Source of the DNA: an uncultured Bacteroidota bacterium
Lineage (GTDB): Bacteria > Bacteroidota > Bacteroidia > Flavobacteriales > Flavobacteriaceae
Direction: 5' to 3'
DNA length: 64,000 bases
Assembly (NCBI GenBank): GCA_902586905.1
Contig: CACIJH010000007.1
Span: 1 to 64,000, forward strand
Position numbers and translations under genes: made by a program. Under the pieces are notes generated by a model. It made no database searches. It was given only the letters and a program-made list of their open reading frames with translations, and had not been told where the DNA came from. This document shows, in pieces, positions 6,258 through 41,873 of this stretch; the first letter of the stretch is position 1, and each line of letters starts with the position of its first letter.

Positions 6258-7556
6258 TTATACTTTCTTTTTTAATGGTTCGATTTGAGGACATAAAACC
6301 CATATACTTACAATGGCTGTCAGTGCTAAAGCGGCTCCAATAATAAATGCTGGATAGTAGTTGCCCCCTGTAGTTAACCATGGAACCAAAGAAGTTAAAC
6401 CAACCGCTGCTAATTTTGCTGCCATACCTGAAAAACCTGCTAATGTTCCGACTGTTTTTCCACTAAACATATCGCTTGGTAAGGTTTGTACATTTCCAAT
6501 GGCTGTTTGAAAACCAAATAAAATCACAGCCATGATCATTACTGCATTAACAGGTGACCCAGGATTAGACATTGCCAAAAGAGATGGAAGCATGATGAAA
6601 CACCCCAACGCGATGACAAATTTTCGAGTATGGTTTGTCGACCATCCTCGTTTCATAAGATTTTGTGCAAGAAGCCCACCAAACCATGCTCCAACCATAG
6701 CTCCTACATAAGGAACCCATCCATAAATCCCAATACCTTTGACGTCCATCCCATATACTTCTGATAAGTAAATCGGTATCCAGAATACAAATAACCACCA
6801 AATTGGATCGATAGCTGCTGAGGATATGATAACCCCCCAACTTTGTTTATGAGATAACAATTCTTTTGTCGTTGGGGCATATTCGTTGTCATTATCTTCC
6901 TCTGCGCTGGATTGTGATTTTTGACCTGACAATATGTAATCCTTCTCTTGGTCAGTTAGCCATGGGTGTCGCTTGGGAGGAGCTTTCATCAGATACATCC
7001 ATGGAATTAACCACAGCAGTCCAATTAGACCAACCAAAACAAAGATGTATTGCCATTTAAAAATCAAAGCAAGACCTGCTATCACAGGATAGGCTACAAT
7101 TCCACCTATCGAGGCACCTGAGTTAAATAGCCCTTGAGCAAAGGCACGTTCTTTTGTGGGAAACCACTCTGCATTGGCTTTGGTAGCACCAGGCCAGTTT
7201 CCTGCTTCGGCAACCCCTAGTATCGATCGAAAAACAGCAAAGCTTGCAAACCCTTTAGCTAATGCGTGTAAGGCTGTTGCAATTGACCAAATTCCTATAG
7301 AAAGGGCAAAGCCAATACGAGTACCTACCCAATCAAAAATCTTTCCAAAGATGGCCTGTCCAAAAGCGTATGAAAACACAAAAATGACAGAGATCCATGC
7401 ATAGATTTCTTTGCGTTCATCAACAGATTTATCTGGGAAAAGTTCAGGAGCAATCTCTGGCCACAAGACACTCAAAGACTGTCGATCGATATAATTTATT
7501 ACTGTCGCTAAAGCAATTAAGGCAATTACCCACCAGCGTAAACCTTTTATTTTCAT
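6258..7556 (-). CDS. MFS transporter, hexuronate family (ExuT-like)
   Basis: The product has 432 residues from the chosen ATG at 7556, giving MKIKGLRWWV followed directly by the first membrane segment. An upstream in-frame ATG at 7583 would add nine residues. About 12 membrane segments are visible. NYIDRQSLSVLWPEI and GNWPGATKANAEWFP are typical of the hexuronate/anion:cation symporter branch. It probably carries unsaturated or keto uronate monomers across the inner membrane. It is the first gene of the operon with the SDR, kdgK and kdgA. Confidence 0.9.
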   Translation of the reverse strand: MKIKGLRWWVIALIALATVINYIDRQSLSVLWPEIAPELFPDKSVDERKEIYAWISVIFVFSYAFGQAIFGKIFDWVGTRIGFALSIGIWSIATALHALAKGFASFAVFRSILGVAEAGNWPGATKANAEWFPTKERAFAQGLFNSGASIGGIVAYPVIAGLALIFKWQYIFVLVGLIGLLWLIPWMYLMKAPPKRHPWLTDQEKDYILSGQKSQSSAEEDNDNEYAPTTKELLSHKQSWGVIISSAAIDPIWWLFVFWIPIYLSEVYGMDVKGIGIYGWVPYVGAMVGAWFGGLLAQNLMKRGWSTNHTRKFVIALGCFIMLPSLLAMSNPGSPVNAVMIMAVILFGFQTAIGNVQTLPSDMFSGKTVGTLAGFSGMAAKLAAVGLTSLVPWLTTGGNYYPAFIIGAALALTAIVSIWVLCPQIEPLKKKV

Positions 7557-7646
7557 AATCAAAATGTTGTGAGAAAAATGCAAACAAGCTAATGTGCGTT
7601 ATCTTGTTTTGCTATTCAATTATTTCCCTCTTTAATAATCTGTTTT

Positions 7647-8348
7647 TTAGGTTTTATAACAGTATTGATATAAAACGCTAAAATGATCTTTTATCATCAA
7701 TTCAGCCTGATCAGGGTCCTTTGTTCGAATCGCCTCTACAATCGCTTCATGTTCTTTTATCGCACTAAGTGCCATGTCACTTTTACAAACGTGATATTTT
7801 TCAAAGTCAGTGATAATTTGGGGTGTTATCGACAACATCAATTGGTTTAGAGATGGATTGTGACTGGCTTGCGCAATTGCCAAATGAAACAATAGGTCTT
7901 CCTCTACAGACTCCTTACCCGAAAGAGTTTTGGTTCGATAATCTTCAAGTGCTTGCTCGATACGTTCTAAATCTTCAGCTGTGTGACGTATTGCAGCAAA
8001 ACGAACAGATTTTATTTCAAGAAAAATTCTTGTTTCAACCAAAGATTTAAAATCGGGGTCAGGTAGGTTCAGAATCTGGTCAATCATACCATTCAAAGCC
8101 GTTCGTCCTAAGTTTGAAATAAAAGTTCCGCTTTGTGGCATCGATTTTAACAAGCCATAAGACTCTAATTTTTGTATCGCATTTCGAATACTTCCTCTAG
8201 TAACATCTATTCTTTCAGCAAGTAGTCGTTCTGAGGGAAGTTTTTCGCCAGGCTCTAAATTCTTTGTATTAATAAGAGTTTTGATCTCAGAAATAATCAT
8301 TTTTTCCTTTGACTCAAGACCATTAACTACCTTAACATTTGTTTTCAT
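7647..8348 (-). CDS. GntR-family (FadR-type) transcriptional regulator
   Basis: The product has 233 residues. An N-terminal winged HTH (about residues 15-80) contains EKLPSERLLAERIDVTRGSIR and a GTFI wing. A C-terminal FCD ligand domain contains LVETRIFLEIKSVRFAA and ends in a helical segment with the family's metal/acid-binding His residues. The gene lies between the MFS-kdgA operon and the PL7 genes. The perfect palindrome CTGGTTAACCAG at 8357-8368 is in its leader, and the same core occurs in the double-PL7 and susC promoters. It is therefore likely an autoregulated repressor responding to a uronate intermediate. The ligand is inferred. Confidence 0.92.
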   Translation of the reverse strand: MKTNVKVVNGLESKEKMIISEIKTLINTKNLEPGEKLPSERLLAERIDVTRGSIRNAIQKLESYGLLKSMPQSGTFISNLGRTALNGMIDQILNLPDPDFKSLVETRIFLEIKSVRFAAIRHTAEDLERIEQALEDYRTKTLSGKESVEEDLLFHLAIAQASHNPSLNQLMLSITPQIITDFEKYHVCKSDMALSAIKEHEAIVEAIRTKDPDQAELMIKDHFSVLYQYCYKT

Positions 8349-8356
8349 AAAATAGA

Positions 8357-8368
8357 CTGGTTAACCAG
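8357..8368 (-). promoter_or_regulatory. GntR operator in the regulator's own leader
   Basis: The perfect 12-bp palindrome CTGGTTAACCAG lies 8 bp upstream of the GntR start codon. On the minus strand it is overlapped by TAAATCTG (8366-8373), a near-match to the Bacteroidota -7 box TAnnTTTG. The core GGTTAACC recurs at 11903-11910 and 41841-41848 in the same position relative to a -7 box. Binding by the GntR protein is inferred. Confidence 0.65.
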
Positions 8369-8412: not shown

Positions 8413-9324
8413 TCAATGAATTACTTTTAATGAATAATATTTTACTCTCGCAAAGGCATTTTCATTTATTGTCCCTAAATAATTACCAGCTTTAAAATAA
8501 TTTTCAAATATGCCCCATTTTTCAATACTGTTTCCTGTATAGGTTTTGGTTTCGTTATCGTTTAAAACAACCTCCATCAATCCATCACCTGCACGAATCT
8601 CCAAGGTGAAAGGTTCATATCCAACGTAAGTTGGAAATGTATAACCACTGTCATTGTCCCATGCATCTGTATGCAATATTTCTGGTACTTCAGCATTGGG
8701 ATTTTTTAATTCTTTGCTGTTTAAACGGACATAGCCATTTACCCATGATATTTTCATAATTGGGGGTGCGTTATTGTCATCTTCCCCAATCAAGTCTCGT
8801 TGCTCGTCTGTGAGCCTTCCATGAATTTGCATGACGATTGTGCGATGTGGATTGCCATTACTGTCTGAAGAAATTTCATCCATCCTCAATCTACCTTTTA
8901 TTGTGCCACCTTGAGAAAAGGTCCAGTTTGTATCATTGGAACCTGAAACCATTTGTTCACGAAGTTCAGTTCTAGAGTATTTGGAATTGGGGGTGCTAGA
9001 ACCTGGTTTTGTAAAAAAAACAAGTGCCCCTTCAATTGAGTCATTGTACATGTAGGGTTTTAATACATCATTGGTTGCATAATCAAGAATTTCGGGGGGT
9101 CCTACAGAAGTTGGATTACCAATCGGCAAAGTCACTTTCCAATTTGTTAAATCAATATCTGGAAGCGAATAAGACGTATTCGTTTCTGAATCATCAGAAT
9201 TTTCATTTGCACCATCTGCACCATATATAGCAAAGTCAAAACCCTTTTTATTTTCACTACAACTAAAAAATTGTAGCGACAAAAAGACTACGGAACAAAG
9301 AATGTAATATTTTCTCAATTTCAT
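8413..9324 (-). CDS. Alginate lyase, family PL7 (lipoprotein)
   Basis: The product has 303 residues. A lipoprotein signal ends at Cys22, followed by an acidic linker (residues 35-50) and an alginate_lyase2 jelly-roll domain. The three PL7 motifs are intact: SRTELREQM (Arg118, Glu120), MQIHG (Gln166, His168) and NYFKAGNY (Tyr276, Tyr282). Gln, His, Arg and the second Tyr are the catalytic set in the family. A QIH rather than QVH motif has been linked to cleavage at guluronate-containing linkages, so polyG or polyMG preference is possible. It is probably on the cell surface or facing the periplasm. It lies downstream of a PL7 remnant and kdgF in the same orientation. Confidence 0.93.
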   Translation of the reverse strand: MKLRKYYILCSVVFLSLQFFSCSENKKGFDFAIYGADGANENSDDSETNTSYSLPDIDLTNWKVTLPIGNPTSVGPPEILDYATNDVLKPYMYNDSIEGALVFFTKPGSSTPNSKYSRTELREQMVSGSNDTNWTFSQGGTIKGRLRMDEISSDSNGNPHRTIVMQIHGRLTDEQRDLIGEDDNNAPPIMKISWVNGYVRLNSKELKNPNAEVPEILHTDAWDNDSGYTFPTYVGYEPFTLEIRAGDGLMEVVLNDNETKTYTGNSIEKWGIFENYFKAGNYLGTINENAFARVKYYSLKVIH

Positions 9325-9330
9325 AAGATT

Positions 9331-9495
9331 TTAATTTGATACCTCTAATTCGAAAAAACTAACTTTTGCAAACGATCCTTCATCACGCGATTGAAAATAA
9401 TTACCTGCTTTAAAGCAATTTTCAAAAACGCTCCTCTTTTCCATATGAACACACTCATAGATTTTAAATTCATTTTTATTGAGTAAAAAATTCAT
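9331..9495 (-). pseudogene. Remnant of a second PL7 alginate lyase (C-terminal 54 codons)
   Basis: This open frame starts at an ATG overlapping the kdgF stop (ATGA) and encodes 54 residues. They align without gaps to the last 54 residues of the neighbouring PL7 lyase, with 24 identities by hand count. FENCFKAGNY matches FENYFKAGNY, and FAKV...LEV matches FARV...LKV. The Arg-Thr-Glu and Gln-Ile-His motifs and the rest of the jelly roll are missing, so it cannot be an active lyase. It looks like the 3' end of a deleted tandem copy. A short peptide could still be made by translational coupling with kdgF. Confidence 0.8.
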
Positions 9496-9839
9496 TCCAT
9501 GAAATCTTCGCGTATTGGACTGAAAACATCGATAAGAACACCATCCTCTAAACAAATAGCCCCGTGCATAACATTGGGTGGAATATAAAAGGCATCTCCA
9601 CCATTTAAAACCTTTGTTTCATCACCAATTGTTACCTCAAAAGAGCCACTGACCACTTGGGTTACTTGTGCGTGATAGTGCTTGTGCATTTGACCAATGC
9701 CTCCTTTTTTGAATTCAACATTTACCAACATGATGGTGTCGTCGTATGCCATGATTTGTCTGCGCACGCCTTCACCTACTTCATCCCATTGGATGTCTTT
9801 TCCAAAATTAAATTCCTTACTTGATCCGAATGATTTCAT
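9492..9839 (-). CDS. kdgF: Cupin, KdgF-type unsaturated uronate ring-opening protein
   Basis: The product has 115 residues, a single-domain cupin. Predicted metal ligands are His52 and His54 in QMHKHYHAQ, Gln58, and His92 in NVMHG, close to the spacing in characterised KdgF proteins. KdgF converts 4,5-unsaturated monouronates released by pectin and alginate lyases to the linear keto form. It sits in the operon after the double-PL7 gene (32-bp gap) and before the PL7 remnant and PL7 gene, which fits this role. A general cupin of other function cannot be excluded by sequence alone. Confidence 0.85.
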   Translation of the reverse strand: MKSFGSSKEFNFGKDIQWDEVGEGVRRQIMAYDDTIMLVNVEFKKGGIGQMHKHYHAQVTQVVSGSFEVTIGDETKVLNGGDAFYIPPNVMHGAICLEDGVLIDVFSPIREDFME

Positions 9840-9871: not shown

Positions 9872-11881
9872 TTATTTTAGTGGTGTTCCTGGACCTACTG
9901 TTGCTTCTCTAAACCAAACCTCTGTATAACTTCCATTTTCATATTGTTTAGCAATATCCCCTCCATAGGTTTCAGCACCTGTACACCATACCATATTTAT
10001 TTCAGGGTTTTTTCCATTTGTCTGGTTATAGGCCCCCTGTTTAAAATAATTTAACTCCCCACTATAAGCAGTGGCACGTTCTGTACCGTCCTGCCCTATG
10101 GGCACAAATAGTTTCTTTACTTGCTGAGGCAAATCTGATTCATTTACATATTCAGAGGAAATTAAATTCTTTGTAAAAGTTTTTGTTTTATGGTTTGGGC
10201 TTGAAAAGGTCAAGTACATGATTCCTTTATAAACATTTACCTCATAACTAAACTCTTCTCCTAATTTAATACCATCTTCTGGCTCGGCAGGATACGCGTC
10301 TTTTGTTGTTCCGATAACAGACATATCATGACCCCAAACAGCAGTTGAGAAGTCCCATCTTCCTGAATTATCCTCTCCAGCAGTATTGATTTCATAGTTC
10401 CAAAAAACCGACCCTTTTGTATGCCCTGGGAATTTTTTATAGAACAATTTAAAGGGCTCATTTTCATGGCCCTCTCCACTGTGTATTTGTCCTATTACAG
10501 TTGAGAATGAAGCAGCAACTCTGGCATCGCCAGTGTTTGAAACATGCATTACTTTACAGATGCCTGTTAGCTTTCCACCCTCTTCTGGAATCCATTCTCT
10601 TTTTTCGTGGAGCTCTGTTCTAGTGTTACTGGAGTTGGGGGAAGTAACACCAGAATTAGGAGTTTTGTATGCAACCCAGCGTCTTGTTCCGTCAATCACT
10701 GTATAGAAAAAGTCTTTGTTTTCAAAATCCACTAGATTGTTTTCTCTTGATCCATCTCCCATTAAAATTTTAAACTTGTCCATAAAAGGAATGACTTCAC
10801 TGGGGTAAACGATCTTTTCACTCAACCCATCATTTGCTGAAAAATAGCCCTCGTTTGAAATGGCTTGATCGCTGATTTCAAGACGAGCTGATTTAAACCA
10901 GACTTCTGCATAATTTCCATCTGCATATTGTTTTTGAAGATCCCCGCCATGGGTTTCTGCACCAGAACACCACACTCTGTTCACTTGTGGACTTTCTCCA
11001 TTGGTTTGATTATAACTCCCCAATTTAAAGAACAAACCTTCTTCAGCGTAAGCGTTTTTGCATTCAACACCATCTTGACCAATAGGAAAAAATAATTCCT
11101 GTACCTGCCTTGGAATATCTGCCTCTGTCTTGTATTCAGAATCAATCAGATTTTTAGTAAAGGTTTTTGTTGGGTGCCCTTCACTTGAAAAGGTGAGGTA
11201 CATCATCCCTTCTTTCACTTCCACTTGGTAGCTAAACTCTTCTCCCAAAGCGATACCCTCTGCTGGTTCTTTTGGAAATACATTTTCGTCTGTTCCAACA
11301 ACAGAAAAGTCGTAACCCCAAACAGGATAGGAATAATCCCATCTTTTTGAATTGTCTTCACCAACTGTATTGATTTCATAATTCCAAAAAACCGATCCTT
11401 TTGTGTGCCCAGGAAATTTTTTATAAAATATCTTAAGAGGTTCATTCTCATGCCCATCTGCACTGTGAATCTGGCCAACCACTACTGAGTAAGTTGCTGC
11501 CACCCGCGCATCACCTGTAGTCGCTACATTCATTACTTTTAGTGTCGCATCTAATTTTGCGTTTGTTAGGGGTGGCCACTTTTTTAGCTGCGCTAGCTCA
11601 GTTCTTGTATTGTTCGAAGTACCATGGGTGTTCCCAGCGTTGGGCGTTTTGAAAACAACCCATTCTCCCTCATTATCAATTGTAACGTAAAAAAAGTCCT
11701 TGTTTTCATAATCAATTGCTTTTCCAACATTTGAACCATCTCCTAAAATTAGATTCCAATGTTGAAAAAAAGGTATGACCTCATTAGCTATTTGAGTTGG
11801 CGTAGCGTTCTGAATACAGCCTTGCAATTGGAAAGCAAAAATTATAGTGAATAGACGAAAAGCCGCATTTTTGATTATCAT
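9872..11881 (-). CDS. Double-domain PL7 alginate lyase (lipoprotein)
   Basis: The product has 669 residues, about twice a normal PL7. A lipobox (LQGC, Cys22) precedes two homologous alginate_lyase2 domains, roughly residues 33-335 and 360-665. Domain 1 has NTRTEL (Arg93), GQIHS (Gln137, His139) and FFKLGSYNQ (Tyr290). Domain 2 has NTRTEL (Arg421), GQIHS (Gln465, His467) and YFKQGAYNQ. Both keep the Arg, Gln, His and second Tyr needed for catalysis. Domain 1 has Phe where the motif's first Tyr usually stands. The two halves share long near-identical stretches such as YKKFPGHTKGSVFWNYEIN, indicating internal duplication. It is the first gene of the operon with kdgF and PL7, behind the operator at 11899-11935. 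Confidence 0.92.
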   Translation of the reverse strand: MIIKNAAFRLFTIIFAFQLQGCIQNATPTQIANEVIPFFQHWNLILGDGSNVGKAIDYENKDFFYVTIDNEGEWVVFKTPNAGNTHGTSNNTRTELAQLKKWPPLTNAKLDATLKVMNVATTGDARVAATYSVVVGQIHSADGHENEPLKIFYKKFPGHTKGSVFWNYEINTVGEDNSKRWDYSYPVWGYDFSVVGTDENVFPKEPAEGIALGEEFSYQVEVKEGMMYLTFSSEGHPTKTFTKNLIDSEYKTEADIPRQVQELFFPIGQDGVECKNAYAEEGLFFKLGSYNQTNGESPQVNRVWCSGAETHGGDLQKQYADGNYAEVWFKSARLEISDQAISNEGYFSANDGLSEKIVYPSEVIPFMDKFKILMGDGSRENNLVDFENKDFFYTVIDGTRRWVAYKTPNSGVTSPNSSNTRTELHEKREWIPEEGGKLTGICKVMHVSNTGDARVAASFSTVIGQIHSGEGHENEPFKLFYKKFPGHTKGSVFWNYEINTAGEDNSGRWDFSTAVWGHDMSVIGTTKDAYPAEPEDGIKLGEEFSYEVNVYKGIMYLTFSSPNHKTKTFTKNLISSEYVNESDLPQQVKKLFVPIGQDGTERATAYSGELNYFKQGAYNQTNGKNPEINMVWCTGAETYGGDIAKQYENGSYTEVWFREATVGPGTPLK

Positions 11882-11898: not shown

Positions 11899-11935
11899 AA
11901 TTGGTTAACCAGTTTGGTTACCCAAATATAGATAT
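11899..11935 (-). promoter_or_regulatory. GntR operator and -7 box of the double-PL7 operon
   Basis: The plus strand reads AATTGGTTAACCA then GTTTGGTTACCCAA, two adjacent inverted-repeat half-pairs, followed by ATATAGATAT. On the minus strand TATATTTG (11923-11930) matches the -7 consensus TAnnTTTG and abuts the operator, so a bound repressor would cover the start site. The whole 37-bp element matches 41837-41873 upstream of susC at 34 of 37 positions. The start codon is at 11881, so the operator lies in the leader. Confidence 0.75.
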
Positions 11936-36258: not shown

Positions 36259-37239
36259 CTACAAAGCAGTGATGACTAAATTGTCAATTCTAATTTCTTC
36301 ATCTCCGCTAGAATAACCATATTTTTCATTATCTGAACTGCCTGTAGCAAGTCCACCAATGCCCCTTGCAAATAACGCTACACTATTATTAGCACCAGAA
36401 TTGAAGTTAAGTATGTACTTGATATAACTTGTATCGTCTGGGTTATTAAGTACTTTAGTCATTAGATTATTCGCTTCAACTTCTGTTTGAGCAACTGAAG
36501 AGTACCCATATCCATCTTGTGGGAATGCCGTTGTTTCAGTGTAATAAGTCGGAGTATAGCCAGTATCATAACCTGTTCCAGCTAGGACTCTAAATTCGAG
36601 ACTTGAAGGGTTTGATTTACCAGCATTAGCTTTAAATGCTACCTCAACTTCAATTTGATAATTGGAATTAGGTGTGACCTCAAACTCTTGATAAATATGA
36701 TCAGGTTCATTGTTGTCAAACTTTAGCACACTATCTCCAGAAGCTGTACTGGATTCTCCTTGAGTGCCTAAGCTTAAATTGATCCAACCCGAACAAGCAC
36801 AATCAGAACCAGATGACTTACCGAGTTTATCAAAAACAGTATTTATTAAAACTGGATCTGGTACAGGGGGTGCTGGCGGTTCTTCAACAAGTACTTCCTT
36901 TGTTAATGTATTTGAAAGGCCATTGTTATCAGAAGCAGTCAATGCCACCGTATAAGTTCCCTCCTCACTAAACCTATTTGTTGGTTCATAATCTGAAGAT
37001 GTATTCCCATCTCCAAAATCCCAAGCATAGGTAGTGGCACTTATTGATCCATTGGAAAAATAAAAGTTTTTCCAACCGTCATTATCCACTTCCTCACTTT
37101 GTATGGCAGAGAATACAGCCTCAGGAGGAGTCGCATCTGGAATTGAATTTGCCTCAGGCAATTCATATTTATCAAAATCATCACATGCCGAAACTAATAC
37201 TAGTAAGGCAACCATTAAAATATTAAATATATTTTTCAT
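36259..37239 (-). CDS. PKD-domain surface glycan-binding lipoprotein
   Basis: The product has 326 residues. A lipoprotein signal ends at Cys19 followed by DDFDKYE, which fits a surface export signal. A PKD domain (about residues 40-120) contains TTYAWDFGDGNTSSDYEPTNRFSEEGTYTVALT. After a Pro-rich linker (PPAPPVPDP) a C-terminal beta-sandwich (about 130-326) may bind glycan. It is directly downstream of susD (20-bp gap). In flavobacterial alginate loci a PKD protein follows susC-susD and acts as the surface glycan-binding protein. Binding specificity is inferred. Confidence 0.85.
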   Translation of the reverse strand: MKNIFNILMVALLVLVSACDDFDKYELPEANSIPDATPPEAVFSAIQSEEVDNDGWKNFYFSNGSISATTYAWDFGDGNTSSDYEPTNRFSEEGTYTVALTASDNNGLSNTLTKEVLVEEPPAPPVPDPVLINTVFDKLGKSSGSDCACSGWINLSLGTQGESSTASGDSVLKFDNNEPDHIYQEFEVTPNSNYQIEVEVAFKANAGKSNPSSLEFRVLAGTGYDTGYTPTYYTETTAFPQDGYGYSSVAQTEVEANNLMTKVLNNPDDTSYIKYILNFNSGANNSVALFARGIGGLATGSSDNEKYGYSSGDEEIRIDNLVITAL

Positions 37240-37259
37240 TTTATTTTATTTATTTGGTT

Positions 37260-38678
37260 TTAATACCCAGGGTTTTGTTCTAATAATCCTTTGCTAAGTC
37301 CGATTTCTATTTGTGGAAATGGAAGCAATAAATCATTAGAGGTGAAATTTGCTCCAATTGCTTCTGCATAGGCGCCAAGTATATCTACCCCTTTTCCAAA
37401 TCGCATTATGTCATACAACCTTTGGTTTTCAAACGCTAATTCTGCACGACGCTCAGCTAACAAATCGTCTTTGGTAATAGAAGTTACTGCGTCTGTTAAT
37501 CCTGCTCTATCACGAACTTGTTGAAATGAGGCTAAAGCCGCTGGATCATTGGTATCAGTACCTCCAGCCAAAATGGCCTCTGCATGCATCAACAAGATAT
37601 CGGCATAACGCAGTACGATCCAATCGTTTCCAGCAAGTCGTGCATCAAAATCAAATGTTTTACCGTCAGAACCGCCATCAAAACCATCAGGTAAAAACTT
37701 AATGACTTGCGTTTGAGTTGGTTGTATTGGATCTGTCCGCATAGAAACTTCAGTTCTGTTTCCACCATTGGTCTCCATAAAAGCCTTTGCATCATCAGTA
37801 ACATAGTTTACACCAACCGTTCGTCCAACTCCGTTTAAGAATTCAGCAGAAAAGTTTTGACTATCTAATGCCAAACCTGAACTATATCCGATAGAAAAAA
37901 TAACTTCCGAATTGTTTTCATTAAAAAATACATCTCTAAAGTTGGCCTCCAAAGCAAATCCATCAGACATAACGCTTTCTAGTAATTGTTGAGCCTCGAG
38001 ATAATTTCCTAACGTAAGGTGTACTTTGGCAAGTAATCCTTGTGCAGCAGCTTTAGTAGCTCTGTTCCTACCATTACTATTGTCTAATCCAGCAACTGCG
38101 CTGTTCAAATCACTAACTATTAAGTCATATATATCTGCCACCGGTCTCCTGATATAAGATGCGTCATCATTTACACCAATAACATTGTCAACAAGTGGTA
38201 TAGCACCATAAAGTCTTACCAAGTTAAAATAAACATAGGCGCGAATAAATTTAGCTTCCCCTTCTATCTTTGCTTTGTTGCTTTCAGAAGCAACACCAAG
38301 ATTTTGTAGTACCGTATTGGCTCGAAAAATAACATTATAAAAACTTCTGTAGTGGTCGGCAATTAAGCCATTAGTCGCCTCAACAGCAAGATTATCAAAT
38401 TGGGCAGCTTCTCCCTCTCCGCTTTTTGATCTTGTGTTGTCGCTACGCATTTCAGTTACATAAAACTCCATTTGAGTTGCGTGATTACTCCTAGAGCTAG
38501 TGTCGTTAGCTCCTTGTAGGCCATCATACATATTGTAGACTCCTTGCATGAGCTGTAATTCATCGGCGTAAAAACTTGCGCCACTTATCACTGATGTTGG
38601 TGCTGGTTCTAAATAGTCTTCACATGAAGTAAAGAGAGCCATTACCGAAATAAAAATTATAATTCTAATGCTTTTCAT
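37260..38678 (-). CDS. susD: SusD-like outer-membrane glycan-binding lipoprotein
   Basis: The product has 472 residues with a lipobox at Cys19 (FTSCEDYLEPAP, the typical SusD start). RAYVYFNLVRLYGAIPLV, the TPR-type helices, and LLMHAEAILAGG near the C-terminus are characteristic of RagB/SusD. LLAERRAELAFENQRLYDIMRFGKG is the conserved C-terminal signature. It forms the lid of the SusC transporter and captures oligosaccharides at the surface. It lies 10 bp after susC. It is the only SusD in the window. Confidence 0.96.
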   Translation of the reverse strand: MKSIRIIIFISVMALFTSCEDYLEPAPTSVISGASFYADELQLMQGVYNMYDGLQGANDTSSRSNHATQMEFYVTEMRSDNTRSKSGEGEAAQFDNLAVEATNGLIADHYRSFYNVIFRANTVLQNLGVASESNKAKIEGEAKFIRAYVYFNLVRLYGAIPLVDNVIGVNDDASYIRRPVADIYDLIVSDLNSAVAGLDNSNGRNRATKAAAQGLLAKVHLTLGNYLEAQQLLESVMSDGFALEANFRDVFFNENNSEVIFSIGYSSGLALDSQNFSAEFLNGVGRTVGVNYVTDDAKAFMETNGGNRTEVSMRTDPIQPTQTQVIKFLPDGFDGGSDGKTFDFDARLAGNDWIVLRYADILLMHAEAILAGGTDTNDPAALASFQQVRDRAGLTDAVTSITKDDLLAERRAELAFENQRLYDIMRFGKGVDILGAYAEAIGANFTSNDLLLPFPQIEIGLSKGLLEQNPGY

Positions 38679-38688
38679 GATTAATTAT

Positions 38689-41600
38689 TTAGAAATTTAG
38701 ATTAAGACCTAATGAGAATGTTCGATTGATCGGAGAACCAACGCGTTGGTAACCGTAGTTAATTGGGCTTGTATCGAGAATAGACTCCGGATTTAAGCCG
38801 TTGTAATCATCAGCAGTTATGTACAGCAAATTTTGACCTGTCGCGTAAATTCTTGCACTGGTAATAAATAATCCTGAGAGTAAATCCTCTGGAAAATCGT
38901 AGCCAATTGATATTGTGCGTAATGCTACATATGAAGCATTCTGAACAATCGAATCCGTAAATATTTTTTGTTTTATAAAGCCTTGATTAGGTGCAGTTGA
39001 TAAAGCTGTTGAAGCAGATCCAAAGTGACGGAATAAATACTGATCACCAATATTTCGTACTTCAGCCCCATGACTTCCTTGAAAAATAAAGCTTAAATCA
39101 AAACCGCCTACCTTAAACTCATTTGAAATGCTCCATACCAAATCAGGGTAAGGATTTCCAAGAATGGTTTTATCATCATCGTCAATTACACCATCACCAT
39201 TAAGGTCTTTCACATAAACTTCTCTATTGGTTTGACGCACACGCTCCCATGGTGCCTTAATGTATTCAGCAGGAATCTCAGAGTCTACTACCCATCCGTA
39301 AAATGATGAAATCGGATTTCCAACTAAATTAATCCACTCTGCAGCACGCTTGGTATCAACATTTGTTATAAGACCATCTGATTCGGCAAAGTCCAAAAGC
39401 TCGTTTTCGTTTCGTGAAGCGATAAACGTACTGTTCCATTGGAAATTTGGTCGAATGACATTTTTAGTTCTAAATTCTATTTCAATACCTCTATTTTCAA
39501 CCTTTCCCCTATTGTCAAGAGCATTCGGGAAACCTGTAGTATACGAAACCGGAACGTCTAACAATAGGTCCTTACTTGTCCTTTTATATACATCTATAGA
39601 ACCTGTAAGTCTATTGTTAAATAATCCAAAATCAATTCCTGGGTTCACCTCCACTGATTTTTCCCAGCCCAAAGCTGCATTGGAAATGTTAAGTGGGTTA
39701 AATCCATTAACAATAGAATTATTAAATGACGCTGACGAAGCTCCAATTAAAGACAAATAAGGGTAACTATTAATTTGGTTTCTGAAATCACCAGAACCAA
39801 TATCAAATGCATTGTTTCCTGTTAGTCCATAACTAACTCTTAGTTTTAAAAAATTAACAGTCTTACTTTCACGTAGGAAATCCTCGTTAGAAAGCGTCCA
39901 TCCAGCAGAAGCTGCTGGGAAAAATCCGTATTTAGAGTCTGGTCCAAAAGCAGAATACCCATCCCTTCTTGCGCTTAATGACACAAGATACTTGCCGTCA
40001 TATGCATAATTGATACGGCCAAAATAGGAAAGTAACCTTTGCTGATATTCTTCAGACGTGGCTTCAGCAATAGTTGTCGCGCCAGAAAGTGTTCGTACCA
40101 AATCTGAGGTATAACCTATTCCCGTAGCAGCCTCAATTTCATAGTCCCACTGTTCAGCAGAAAAACCAGCCACTGCATTGATGTCATGTTTACCTATTGT
40201 TTTATCATAAGTGAAAATATTATCTGAAACAATATGGAGCCTCTTCAAGTTTGAAAGGTCAAGCCTTGTTGCTGCTACTCCATTACGACTCGCTTTAACC
40301 CCCTGCCACCTATCTCTTTTTGTGTGTGAGTAATCACCCCCCAAGGTTGTTTTAAATTTCAAGCCGTTAGTAATTTCGTATTGTACATAGATATTTCCGT
40401 ATAGTTTAAATTTATAATCATTTCTGTCACGTTCCAAAATTTTGGCAGCTGGGTTGGTATTACTAGTTGTACTAATATCTGTTTCACCTCCGTCTCCATA
40501 TAAATCAAAATTATCAAAGTGTCTTTGCACAGCATAATCACCTACCTGAACATCTGGATATGCATTTCTATCCACAAACTGGATAGTGTGGTCGTTGTGG
40601 TAGACCGGCAACCATGGTGGTTGTCTTAATACATCGTGCGTTGAACCATCAAATCTTCTTCTGTCAGAATAAGAAGGAGATATGTTGGCACCGACTTTAA
40701 ATTTATCTCCAACTCTCGAGTCAACCTTCAAACGAATACTATATCGATCAAAGTTATCTGTAAGTAAAACACCTTCGTCACTTAAGTAGTTTAAAGATGT
40801 GCTAAATGTAGTGCGCTGGCTTCCACCTCTTGCAGAAAACGAGTGGCTTTCTATCCAACCACCATCAAACATAATATCTTGCCAATCACGATCATTCTGA
40901 AGTAAAAGTTTATAATTGGTTTTATCTGAAAGTTCACCAGTTGCTGCAAGTTCTTTTTCAGCCCACTCTTTCATTGAAACATGTATATTTTCGCCTGTTC
41001 GTGCTTCTTTAAAGCCCCTATATGTATTGTAGGTAAATTTTGTTTTACCTTCCTTACCATTTTTAGTTGAAATTAAAATTACACCATTACCACCTCGTGC
41101 GCCAAAAATTGCTGCCGAAGAAGCATCTTTCAATACTTCAAATGATTCGATATCATTCATATCAAGATTACCCAAAAAATCGTTATCAACAACAATTCCA
41201 TCAACAACAATAAGAGGTGATGAACTACTTGTGATAGAACCTGTACCCCTAACGCGGATTGTAGGGTCAGACCCTGCTTCACCCTCTGTAGCTTGAATAT
41301 TTACACCAGAAACTTGGCCAGTTAGTGCATCATCTACTCGAGAGACAGCAATTTTATCAAGGTTTTCATTTTTTACTTTCGAAATAGCGCCAGTCAAATT
41401 TTTCCTTTTTTGAGTTCCATATCCAATGACGACAATTTCGTCAAGAAGTGTATCGTCATATTCCATAGATATATTTAAAACATTATTGCTTTCTACAACA
41501 ACAATCTGTGTTTTGAATCCTACATAGGAAAATTGTAATAAATCACCCTCGTTTGCATTAATTTCAAAGTTTCCGTCAAAATCTGTAACCGCACCAATAC

Positions 41601-41751
41601 TGGAATTAACTACAACAATATTAACGCCTGGGATAGGTTCATTGTCCTCACTGGAAGAAACTTGTCCTTTTATACTCATAGTATTCTGAGCGTATGTTCC
41701 CAAGCACATAAGCAATGATACTAAAAGAGTTAATTTAATTTTATAATTCAT
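38689..41751 (-). CDS. susC: SusC-like TonB-dependent oligosaccharide transporter
   Basis: The product has 1020 residues. A signal peptide (ending TYAQ) is followed by a carboxypeptidase-regulatory-like domain (IKGQVSSSEDNEPIPGVNIVV). Next come the TonB box/plug start LDEIVVIGYGTQKRKNLTGA, the plug (about 120-230, with KDASSAAIFGARGGNGVILI) and the beta-barrel ending RTFSLGLNLNF. It imports oligosaccharides, presumably alginate-derived, with SusD. Its promoter carries the same 37-bp operator as the double-PL7 operon. That shared element is the best evidence for the alginate assignment. Confidence 0.96.
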   Translation of the reverse strand: MNYKIKLTLLVSLLMCLGTYAQNTMSIKGQVSSSEDNEPIPGVNIVVVNSSIGAVTDFDGNFEINANEGDLLQFSYVGFKTQIVVVESNNVLNISMEYDDTLLDEIVVIGYGTQKRKNLTGAISKVKNENLDKIAVSRVDDALTGQVSGVNIQATEGEAGSDPTIRVRGTGSITSSSSPLIVVDGIVVDNDFLGNLDMNDIESFEVLKDASSAAIFGARGGNGVILISTKNGKEGKTKFTYNTYRGFKEARTGENIHVSMKEWAEKELAATGELSDKTNYKLLLQNDRDWQDIMFDGGWIESHSFSARGGSQRTTFSTSLNYLSDEGVLLTDNFDRYSIRLKVDSRVGDKFKVGANISPSYSDRRRFDGSTHDVLRQPPWLPVYHNDHTIQFVDRNAYPDVQVGDYAVQRHFDNFDLYGDGGETDISTTSNTNPAAKILERDRNDYKFKLYGNIYVQYEITNGLKFKTTLGGDYSHTKRDRWQGVKASRNGVAATRLDLSNLKRLHIVSDNIFTYDKTIGKHDINAVAGFSAEQWDYEIEAATGIGYTSDLVRTLSGATTIAEATSEEYQQRLLSYFGRINYAYDGKYLVSLSARRDGYSAFGPDSKYGFFPAASAGWTLSNEDFLRESKTVNFLKLRVSYGLTGNNAFDIGSGDFRNQINSYPYLSLIGASSASFNNSIVNGFNPLNISNAALGWEKSVEVNPGIDFGLFNNRLTGSIDVYKRTSKDLLLDVPVSYTTGFPNALDNRGKVENRGIEIEFRTKNVIRPNFQWNSTFIASRNENELLDFAESDGLITNVDTKRAAEWINLVGNPISSFYGWVVDSEIPAEYIKAPWERVRQTNREVYVKDLNGDGVIDDDDKTILGNPYPDLVWSISNEFKVGGFDLSFIFQGSHGAEVRNIGDQYLFRHFGSASTALSTAPNQGFIKQKIFTDSIVQNASYVALRTISIGYDFPEDLLSGLFITSARIYATGQNLLYITADDYNGLNPESILDTSPINYGYQRVGSPINRTFSLGLNLNF

Positions 41752-41836: not shown

Positions 41837-41873
41837 AATTGGTTAACCATATTGGTTATCCAAATATAGATAT
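41837..41873 (-). promoter_or_regulatory. GntR operator and -7 box of the susC operon
   Basis: The plus strand reads AATTGGTTAACCA then TATTGGTTATCCAA, followed by ATATAGATAT. On the minus strand TATATTTG (41861-41868) is a perfect -7 box abutting the operator, about 110 bp from the susC ATG at 41751. It matches 11899-11935 at 34 of 37 positions. The rest of the 314-bp intergenic region 41752-42065 holds only AT-rich sequence and the sulfatase promoter. Confidence 0.78.

Follow-up and report, generated by a model that had tools for sequence, protein, structure and literature searches.

The alginate locus and a short frame behind kdgF

The window, by which we mean the whole 64,000 nt stretch of DNA analysed here, carries an alginate locus whose central genes lie on the minus strand. 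In the direction of reading these are a two-domain PL7 gene (PL7dbl, 9872..11881, two PF08787 stretches), kdgF (9492..9839, a cupin of 115 aa, Pfam Cupin_2), a 54-codon frame (9331..9495), an intact alginate lyase gene (PL7a, 8413..9324, PF08787 over the full profile) and a GntR/FCD regulator, AusR-like by its position (7647..8348). The pair PL7dbl-kdgF is conserved in relatives, as is the regulator after PL7a. An MFS gene lies between the regulator and an SDR gene (6258-7583) and was found in two types, some relatives having a version about 67-79% identical and others, including genome G410, one only about 41-52% identical; the genes beside it look orthologous, and the MFS gene was possibly replaced in place. 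With kdgF, SusC, SusD, PKD lipoprotein, PL7, GntR, MFS, SDR, kdgK and kdgA in mostly the usual order, the window resembles the flavobacterial alginate locus of Zobellia, in whose locus I a large alginate operon brings PL7-SF6 in-paralogues together with PKD proteins and AusR, a GntR repressor (PMC8073546, in the parts consulted). It differs from the locus as those parts describe it in that the SusC-SusD-lipoprotein genes lie about 27 kb from PL7a and that kdgF abuts a PL7 stub.

The short frame runs on the minus strand from an ATG at 9493-9495 to a TAA at 9331-9333, and its ATG overlaps the kdgF stop codon (TGA, 9492-9494) in the sequence ATGA (9492..9495), so that the coordinates bear out a sequence-only reading of this DNA, which had the frame start on the kdgF stop. 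The 24 gapless identities which that reading had noted to the C-terminus of the adjacent PL7 (8413-9324) were reproduced in an anchored alignment over 54 residues. In a search of its own genome the 54 aa sequence matched the adjacent PL7 with an E-value of 3.3e-10, and Pfam PF08787 aligned to residues 6-53 (E 8.2e-5, profile positions 175-224 of 225) with a score of 23.0 bits, which falls short of the gathering cut-off of 29.7 bits. All 93 intact PL7 proteins that we collected matched this spot in tblastn (best E 1.2e-20), and homology to the intact family is significant but partial.

The active site of PL7 lyases is formed by the segments R-x-E-L-R, Q-I-H and Y-F-K-A-G-x-Y. The first two belong to the part that is missing here, and the third reads CFKAGNY, its first Y being changed. 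The stub is like the last ~50 residues of a PL7 lyase (PF08787, Alginate_lyase2), with up to 37 of 54 identities to the C-termini of PL7b, the upstream copy of a tandem pair in relatives. It is unlike a PL7 lyase in that it has no signal peptide, lacks the N-terminal four fifths, has changed an invariant W and Y, and shows no complete Alginate_lyase2 domain above the gathering score. Judged by its sequence, the stub cannot be a lyase.

Not all of the frame appears to be lyase-derived. Against the PL7b of L041, the nearest by locus, the alignment opens only at codon 5 (LNKNEF...) with 34 of 50 identities, and the first four codons are similar to the DNA 3' of kdgF in relatives; on this basis PL7b accounts for about 50 of the 54 codons and the kdgF 3' flank probably for about four. 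At the DNA level, the PL7b end of L041 can be traced by eye in the stub from CTCAATAAAAATGAATTTAAAA onward. A tblastn match that seemed to extend the homology 23 codons into kdgF (9340-9564) was rejected as a chance tail, because it needed a gap with L047 and L095, was absent with L041, and covers a stretch that encodes the conserved kdgF end. L041 itself is a Flavobacteriaceae-like alginate locus in a bin named Hellea sp. (JABGVR010000250.1), and its contig is probably mis-binned.

Source of the remnant and gene order in relatives

A match to the adjacent PL7 was found in 80 of 397 genomes of the family, many with two copies side by side. From the fetched loci we kept 93 PL7 proteins, of which 35 are the upstream copy of a pair (PL7b), 35 are the downstream copy (PL7a) and 23 have no pair assignment, and aligned their tails to the stub over 54 residues with the FEN motif as anchor. 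Identities to the stub number 26-37 of 54 for the 34 distinct PL7b tails (median 34), compared with 19-30 (median 26) for the 35 PL7a tails, and in each of the 35 tandem pairs found in relatives PL7b is the nearer of the two copies, with zero ties. The position agrees: PL7b stands directly before PL7a in the 35 pairs, ending 9 nt before it in G177 and L041, and the stub ends 6 nt before PL7a in the window. Since it is nearer to PL7b in every pair and occupies the place directly ahead of PL7a that PL7b has in relatives, the sequence identifies the stub as the end of PL7b, the upstream paralogue of PL7a. The tail of a duplicated adjacent PL7a is ruled out by the same comparison, and the earlier view of the lost gene as a copy of the adjacent PL7 was not borne out. 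What that view had right is that the stub is the tail of a PL7 lost from a tandem pair and that kdgF now abuts a fossil, tandem PL7 genes being common in the family.

Gene order was compared in eleven loci of relatives, and eight of them (L102, L108-L114) show the order SusC-SusD-lipoprotein-PL7. Among these eight, kdgF lies upstream in seven (the exception being L111, where the fetched stretch begins 600 nt before SusC), both PL7 copies are present in seven (L108 has one), and both features occur together in six. The best example is G177 (contig 165, L102), whose kdgF is 95% identical to that of the window and whose order is PL7dbl(end)-kdgF-SusC-SusD-lip-lip-PL7b-PL7a-GntR-MFS; L109, L110, L112, L113 and L114 have kdgF-(SDR-)SusC-SusD-lip(s)-PL7b-PL7a-GntR, with the SDR gene in L110, so that in all six kdgF lies farther upstream of the PL7b-PL7a pair. 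Measured between the stop codon of kdgF and the stretch of PL7b equivalent to the stub, the distance is about 8.1 kb in G177 and about 6.8 kb in L114, which has one lipoprotein gene. The other three of the eleven loci read kdgF-SusC-SusD-PL7a (L103), kdgF-PL7a (L104) and kdgF-PL7 debris-GntR (L107). The exact order kdgF-PL7b-PL7a was found in no relative examined.

Compared with these relatives, the kdgF-PL7a interval of the window lacks the SusC, SusD and lipoprotein genes as well as about 250 PL7b codons. As SusC, SusD and two lipoprotein genes stand between kdgF and PL7b in G177, the scar marks the removal of about 8 kb from this site and not of the lyase alone. The proposal of gene loss in a PL7 tandem array thus holds insofar as one PL7 of a pair was lost, but it was too narrow, as SusC, SusD and lipoproteins are missing as well; likewise, the intact PL7 that was to be sought between kdgF and PL7 does exist in relatives as PL7b before PL7a, but in G177 it shares the interval with the SusC-SusD-lipoprotein genes. 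No trace of the 5' part of PL7b turned up elsewhere in the window, where the remaining matches lie in PL7a, the stub and the two-domain PL7.

In two further genomes, G410 and G415, PL7a begins 15 nt after kdgF with no SusC-SusD between them and no stub, and G410 shares with the window a block TRAP-PLx-PL7dbl-kdgF. A screen of the fetched loci for PL7 fragments outside full genes returned G114 only, other short matches lying inside two-domain PL7 genes; the stub of G011, a congener discussed below, escaped this screen by lying less than 30 nt from PL7a. G114 belongs to another genus, and in it a second remnant of a PL7 C-terminus stands after kdgF and before GntR (L094:4407-4565, and at the same position in L107). 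Its order is PL7dbl-kdgF, two operator-like palindromic sites, PL7 remnant, GntR; the remnant is split over two frames and contains an in-frame stop, and the best SusD match of this genome to the G177 SusD is 31%. The two remnants are alike in that each lies between kdgF and GntR and that only the C-terminus of the PL7 concerned is left, and that of G114 differs in its genus, in lying about 0.4 kb after kdgF, and in having no PL7a left. G114 is apparently an independent, more decayed case.

The ATGA overlap, the joint and the decay of the frame

The sequence-only reading had described the frame as coupled to kdgF by ATGA, which does not survive comparison. The same GGAATGA ends kdgF in G177, G409, G410 and G415, where SusC or PL7a comes next and no stub is present, while more distant kdgF genes have other endings; in G011 the ATG of the kdgF end is out of frame with the stub. 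As four relatives without a stub have this end, the ATG belongs to kdgF itself and is not an evolved coupling; the overlap does not go together with the gene pair. The DNA that follows the kdgF TGA reads TAATTTTTTTAAC in G177, CAATTTTTTTAAC in G409, ATTTTTTTAC in G011 and ATTTTTTAC in the window. By this comparison the joint is probably situated behind the T-run, which would make the frame's first four codons kdgF flank; alternatively, it lies at the AATGA(T) common to kdgF and PL7b. The kdgF flanks of G177 and G409 together with the PL7b of G177 and L041 confine it to 9481..9494 (minus strand), with the kdgF stop on one side and the PL7b sequence CTCAATAAAAATG on the other. Side by side with this we noted that kdgF is 95-97% identical in G177, G409, G410 and G415 but PL7a and GntR there only about 65-76%, which may reflect either unusually strong conservation or transfer of kdgF; among viral contigs there was one relative of kdgF (54%), and no PL7 relative was found.

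Across 91 distinct intact PL7 tails, 14 columns are conserved in at least 95%. The stub changes three of these 14 (W21R, Y27C, H54N), while in a leave-one-out comparison 84 of the 91 intact tails change none and seven change one. Apart from the window genome, the stub was seen in a single congener, G011 (contig 18), which has it at the same place with one extra T after ATGAA and an in-frame TAT changed to TAG; W to R and Y to C are changed there likewise, the final H being retained. The frame difference sits in a T-run, where assembly errors are common. Disabling changes are thus present in both carriers, and the conserved open frame that one would look for in a functional small protein is broken in the sole other genome. 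A search for relatives that retain the same 54-codon frame intact, named beforehand as the finding that would overturn the remnant, found none, with one other carrier to look in, and the suggestion that the peptide may be kept is disfavoured by the two breaks in G011 and the loss of the near-invariant W, Y and H here.

Substitutions between the window genome (G000) and G011 tell a less clear story. The stub differs at 8 of 161 positions plus one indel, compared with 2 of 348 in kdgF, 32 of 912 in PL7a, and 4 of 64 and 5 of 59 in two short intergenic stretches. The eight changes comprise four synonymous, three nonsynonymous and one nonsense change on 27 synonymous and 126 nonsynonymous sites, so that the synonymous share is above the approximately one in six expected of free drift, on very small counts, and this test does not favour drift. 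The stub is also still 34-37/54 identical to many intact PL7b tails. The two carrier genomes are 70% and 72% complete; in a survey of 13 genomes of the genus, none of them 90% complete, PL7 and kdgF were each found in just two, and there is thus no third copy of the stub for comparison. In G011 (L007) the start codon of PL7a is ATT, in the window ATG; a TTG two codons later could serve as the start there, or PL7a may be starting to decay.

The displaced SusC-SusD set and the history of the locus

An alginate-type transport set is present elsewhere in the window, consisting of SusC (38689-41751), SusD (37260-38678) and a PKD lipoprotein (36259-37239), all within 36259..41751 on the minus strand. 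It lies about 27 kb from PL7a on the same strand, the usual place being between kdgF and PL7, and we accordingly withdrew the idea that SusC-SusD had been lost altogether. The set is followed by an acetylesterase-like gene in place of PL7, and its flanks carry genes for a sulfatase and for an alginate lyase of family PF05426. G410 has the same arrangement, and G415, G011 and G009 share SusC-SusD-lip-esterase; G009 has the set with both kdgF and PL7 absent. The window SusD is 57-63% identical to SusDs of 20 genomes, all with a PL7 match nearby on the same contig, and 48% identical to that of G177. Among the 50 SusDs placed in a tree, the five that are linked to an esterase (window, G011, G009, G410, G415) form one clade (support 100/100) on a stem of 0.43, nested in a 32-row clade (98/97) that otherwise consists of SusDs near PL7; G177 falls outside and is not sister to them. 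Because the window SusD is not the sister of the G177 SusD, what exactly was removed from the kdgF-PL7 interval is read from gene order, and with a clade of its own on a stem of that length the displaced set could have been acquired separately.

The 64 kb window contains just three copies of a palindrome, TGGTTAACCA, one each in front of GntR (8358..8367), PL7dbl (11902..11911) and the displaced SusC (41840..41849); going upstream from PL7a, the first such site is the one at PL7dbl. In 32 related loci a looser form, TGGTNNACCA, was found in the 350 nt preceding 26 of 30 SusC, 21 of 27 GntR and 11 of 23 PL7dbl genes, 0 of 25 kdgF genes and 23 of 312 other genes. It was not found in the stretch of G009. 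AusR represses most alginate genes (PMC8286568, as far as consulted), and TGGTTAACCA is likely the putative operator of the alginate regulator. By this distribution the displaced set looks like part of the same regulon, and with an alginate-type set and the same palindrome only about 27 kb away, the SusC-SusD-lipoprotein part may have moved.

Taken together, the frame is very probably a non-functional remnant of PL7b, left by a deletion or relocation that joined kdgF to the PL7b tail. The ancestral order would probably have been [PL7dbl-]kdgF-SusC-SusD-lipoprotein(s)-PL7b-PL7a-GntR-MFS, as is seen in G177. From gene order, the event would have cleared the site of SusC, SusD and the lipoprotein(s), together with the SusC promoter and its operator and about 250 PL7b codons, and fused the kdgF end to the ~50 codons that close PL7b. 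The stub would then have drifted, with the W, Y and H changes seen here and the nonsense change and frame difference seen in the sister species. The ATGA is the old end of kdgF, and its being in frame with the stub here is presumably an accident. The lasting effect would be positional: PL7a now comes after kdgF, and the nearest operator-like palindrome upstream of it is that before PL7dbl, which may now govern it.

Other readings of the frame were weighed against this remnant. It is very unlikely that a micropeptide, or a translated bridge coupling kdgF to PL7a, has been kept: the frame is open here, with the overlap upstream, a gap of 6 nt to the PL7a start and synonymous changes over-represented among the few differences, but it is broken in G011 by the added T and the TAG, has lost the near-invariant W, Y and H, lacks most of the PL7 domain, begins on an ATGA older than the stub, and is absent from G410 and G415. 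Slightly less credible still is that only a duplicate of PL7a was lost and that kdgF had always been its neighbour, as first proposed. The 24 of 54 identities with PL7a speak for it, but the affinity to PL7b in all 35 pairs opposes it, as does the SusC-SusD-lipoprotein set between kdgF and PL7b in relatives that have kdgF and both PL7 copies. The chance that an assembly artefact joined two contigs is negligible; both G000 and G011 are fragmented and incomplete, but the same joint occurs in these two separate assemblies, which differ in sequence.

How the joint arose is a separate matter, and here relocation or block insertion instead of loss is a variant of the preferred remnant reading. SusC-SusD-lipoprotein would have been split from PL7b-PL7a by rearrangement, for example when a block ending in TRAP-PLx-PL7dbl-kdgF landed inside PL7b, the stub being the right edge of the insertion. 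We regard this as possible, if somewhat doubtful. The set at 36259-41751 keeps the strand and the internal order and has TGGTTAACCA in front of SusC, its SusD falls within a group of SusDs that stand near PL7, and G410 has both the TRAP-PLx-PL7dbl-kdgF block and, like G415, the displaced set. Separate acquisition, however, could account for a SusD clade that is not sister to the G177 SusD; G009 has the set without kdgF or PL7, no 5' PL7b vestige was found elsewhere in the window, and kdgF is already beside PL7dbl, upstream of SusC, in G177. We tentatively consider it plausible that one rearrangement took both importer and operator out of the kdgF-PL7 interval and put PL7a behind the PL7dbl operator, a rewiring in a small-genome lineage with a TRAP transporter just upstream. 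G410/G415 and G114, with kdgF beside PL7 or PL7 debris and no SusC-SusD between, could with the same reserve be other routes to that outcome.

In Flagellimonas, stepwise simplification of the alginate locus by PL7 loss has been described (PMC12323373). The window is like this case in having lost one PL7 from an alginate locus and unlike it in that part of the lost gene can still be read; in the consulted parts of that paper the word 'pseudogene' is absent. Among polar isolates, all the Bacteroidetes strains studied had one or more susC-susD pairs in their alginate cluster (PMC7874173, parts consulted). We found no report of this stub in the openly licensed PMC literature on PL7/kdgF/SusD loci, PL7 remnants or pseudogenes, AusR and gene loss from such loci.

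The stub is an ordinary pseudogene fragment, and its value is as a marker of how an alginate locus was dismantled. It also advises caution, as ATGA overlaps cannot be read as coupling without a check of relatives. A readable stub at the joint is direct evidence of a former second PL7 in this alginate locus, and the order in relatives indicates that outer-membrane importer genes formerly stood at this site. The event is dated before the split of two species, and it documents the dismantling of a polysaccharide locus in a small-genome lineage.
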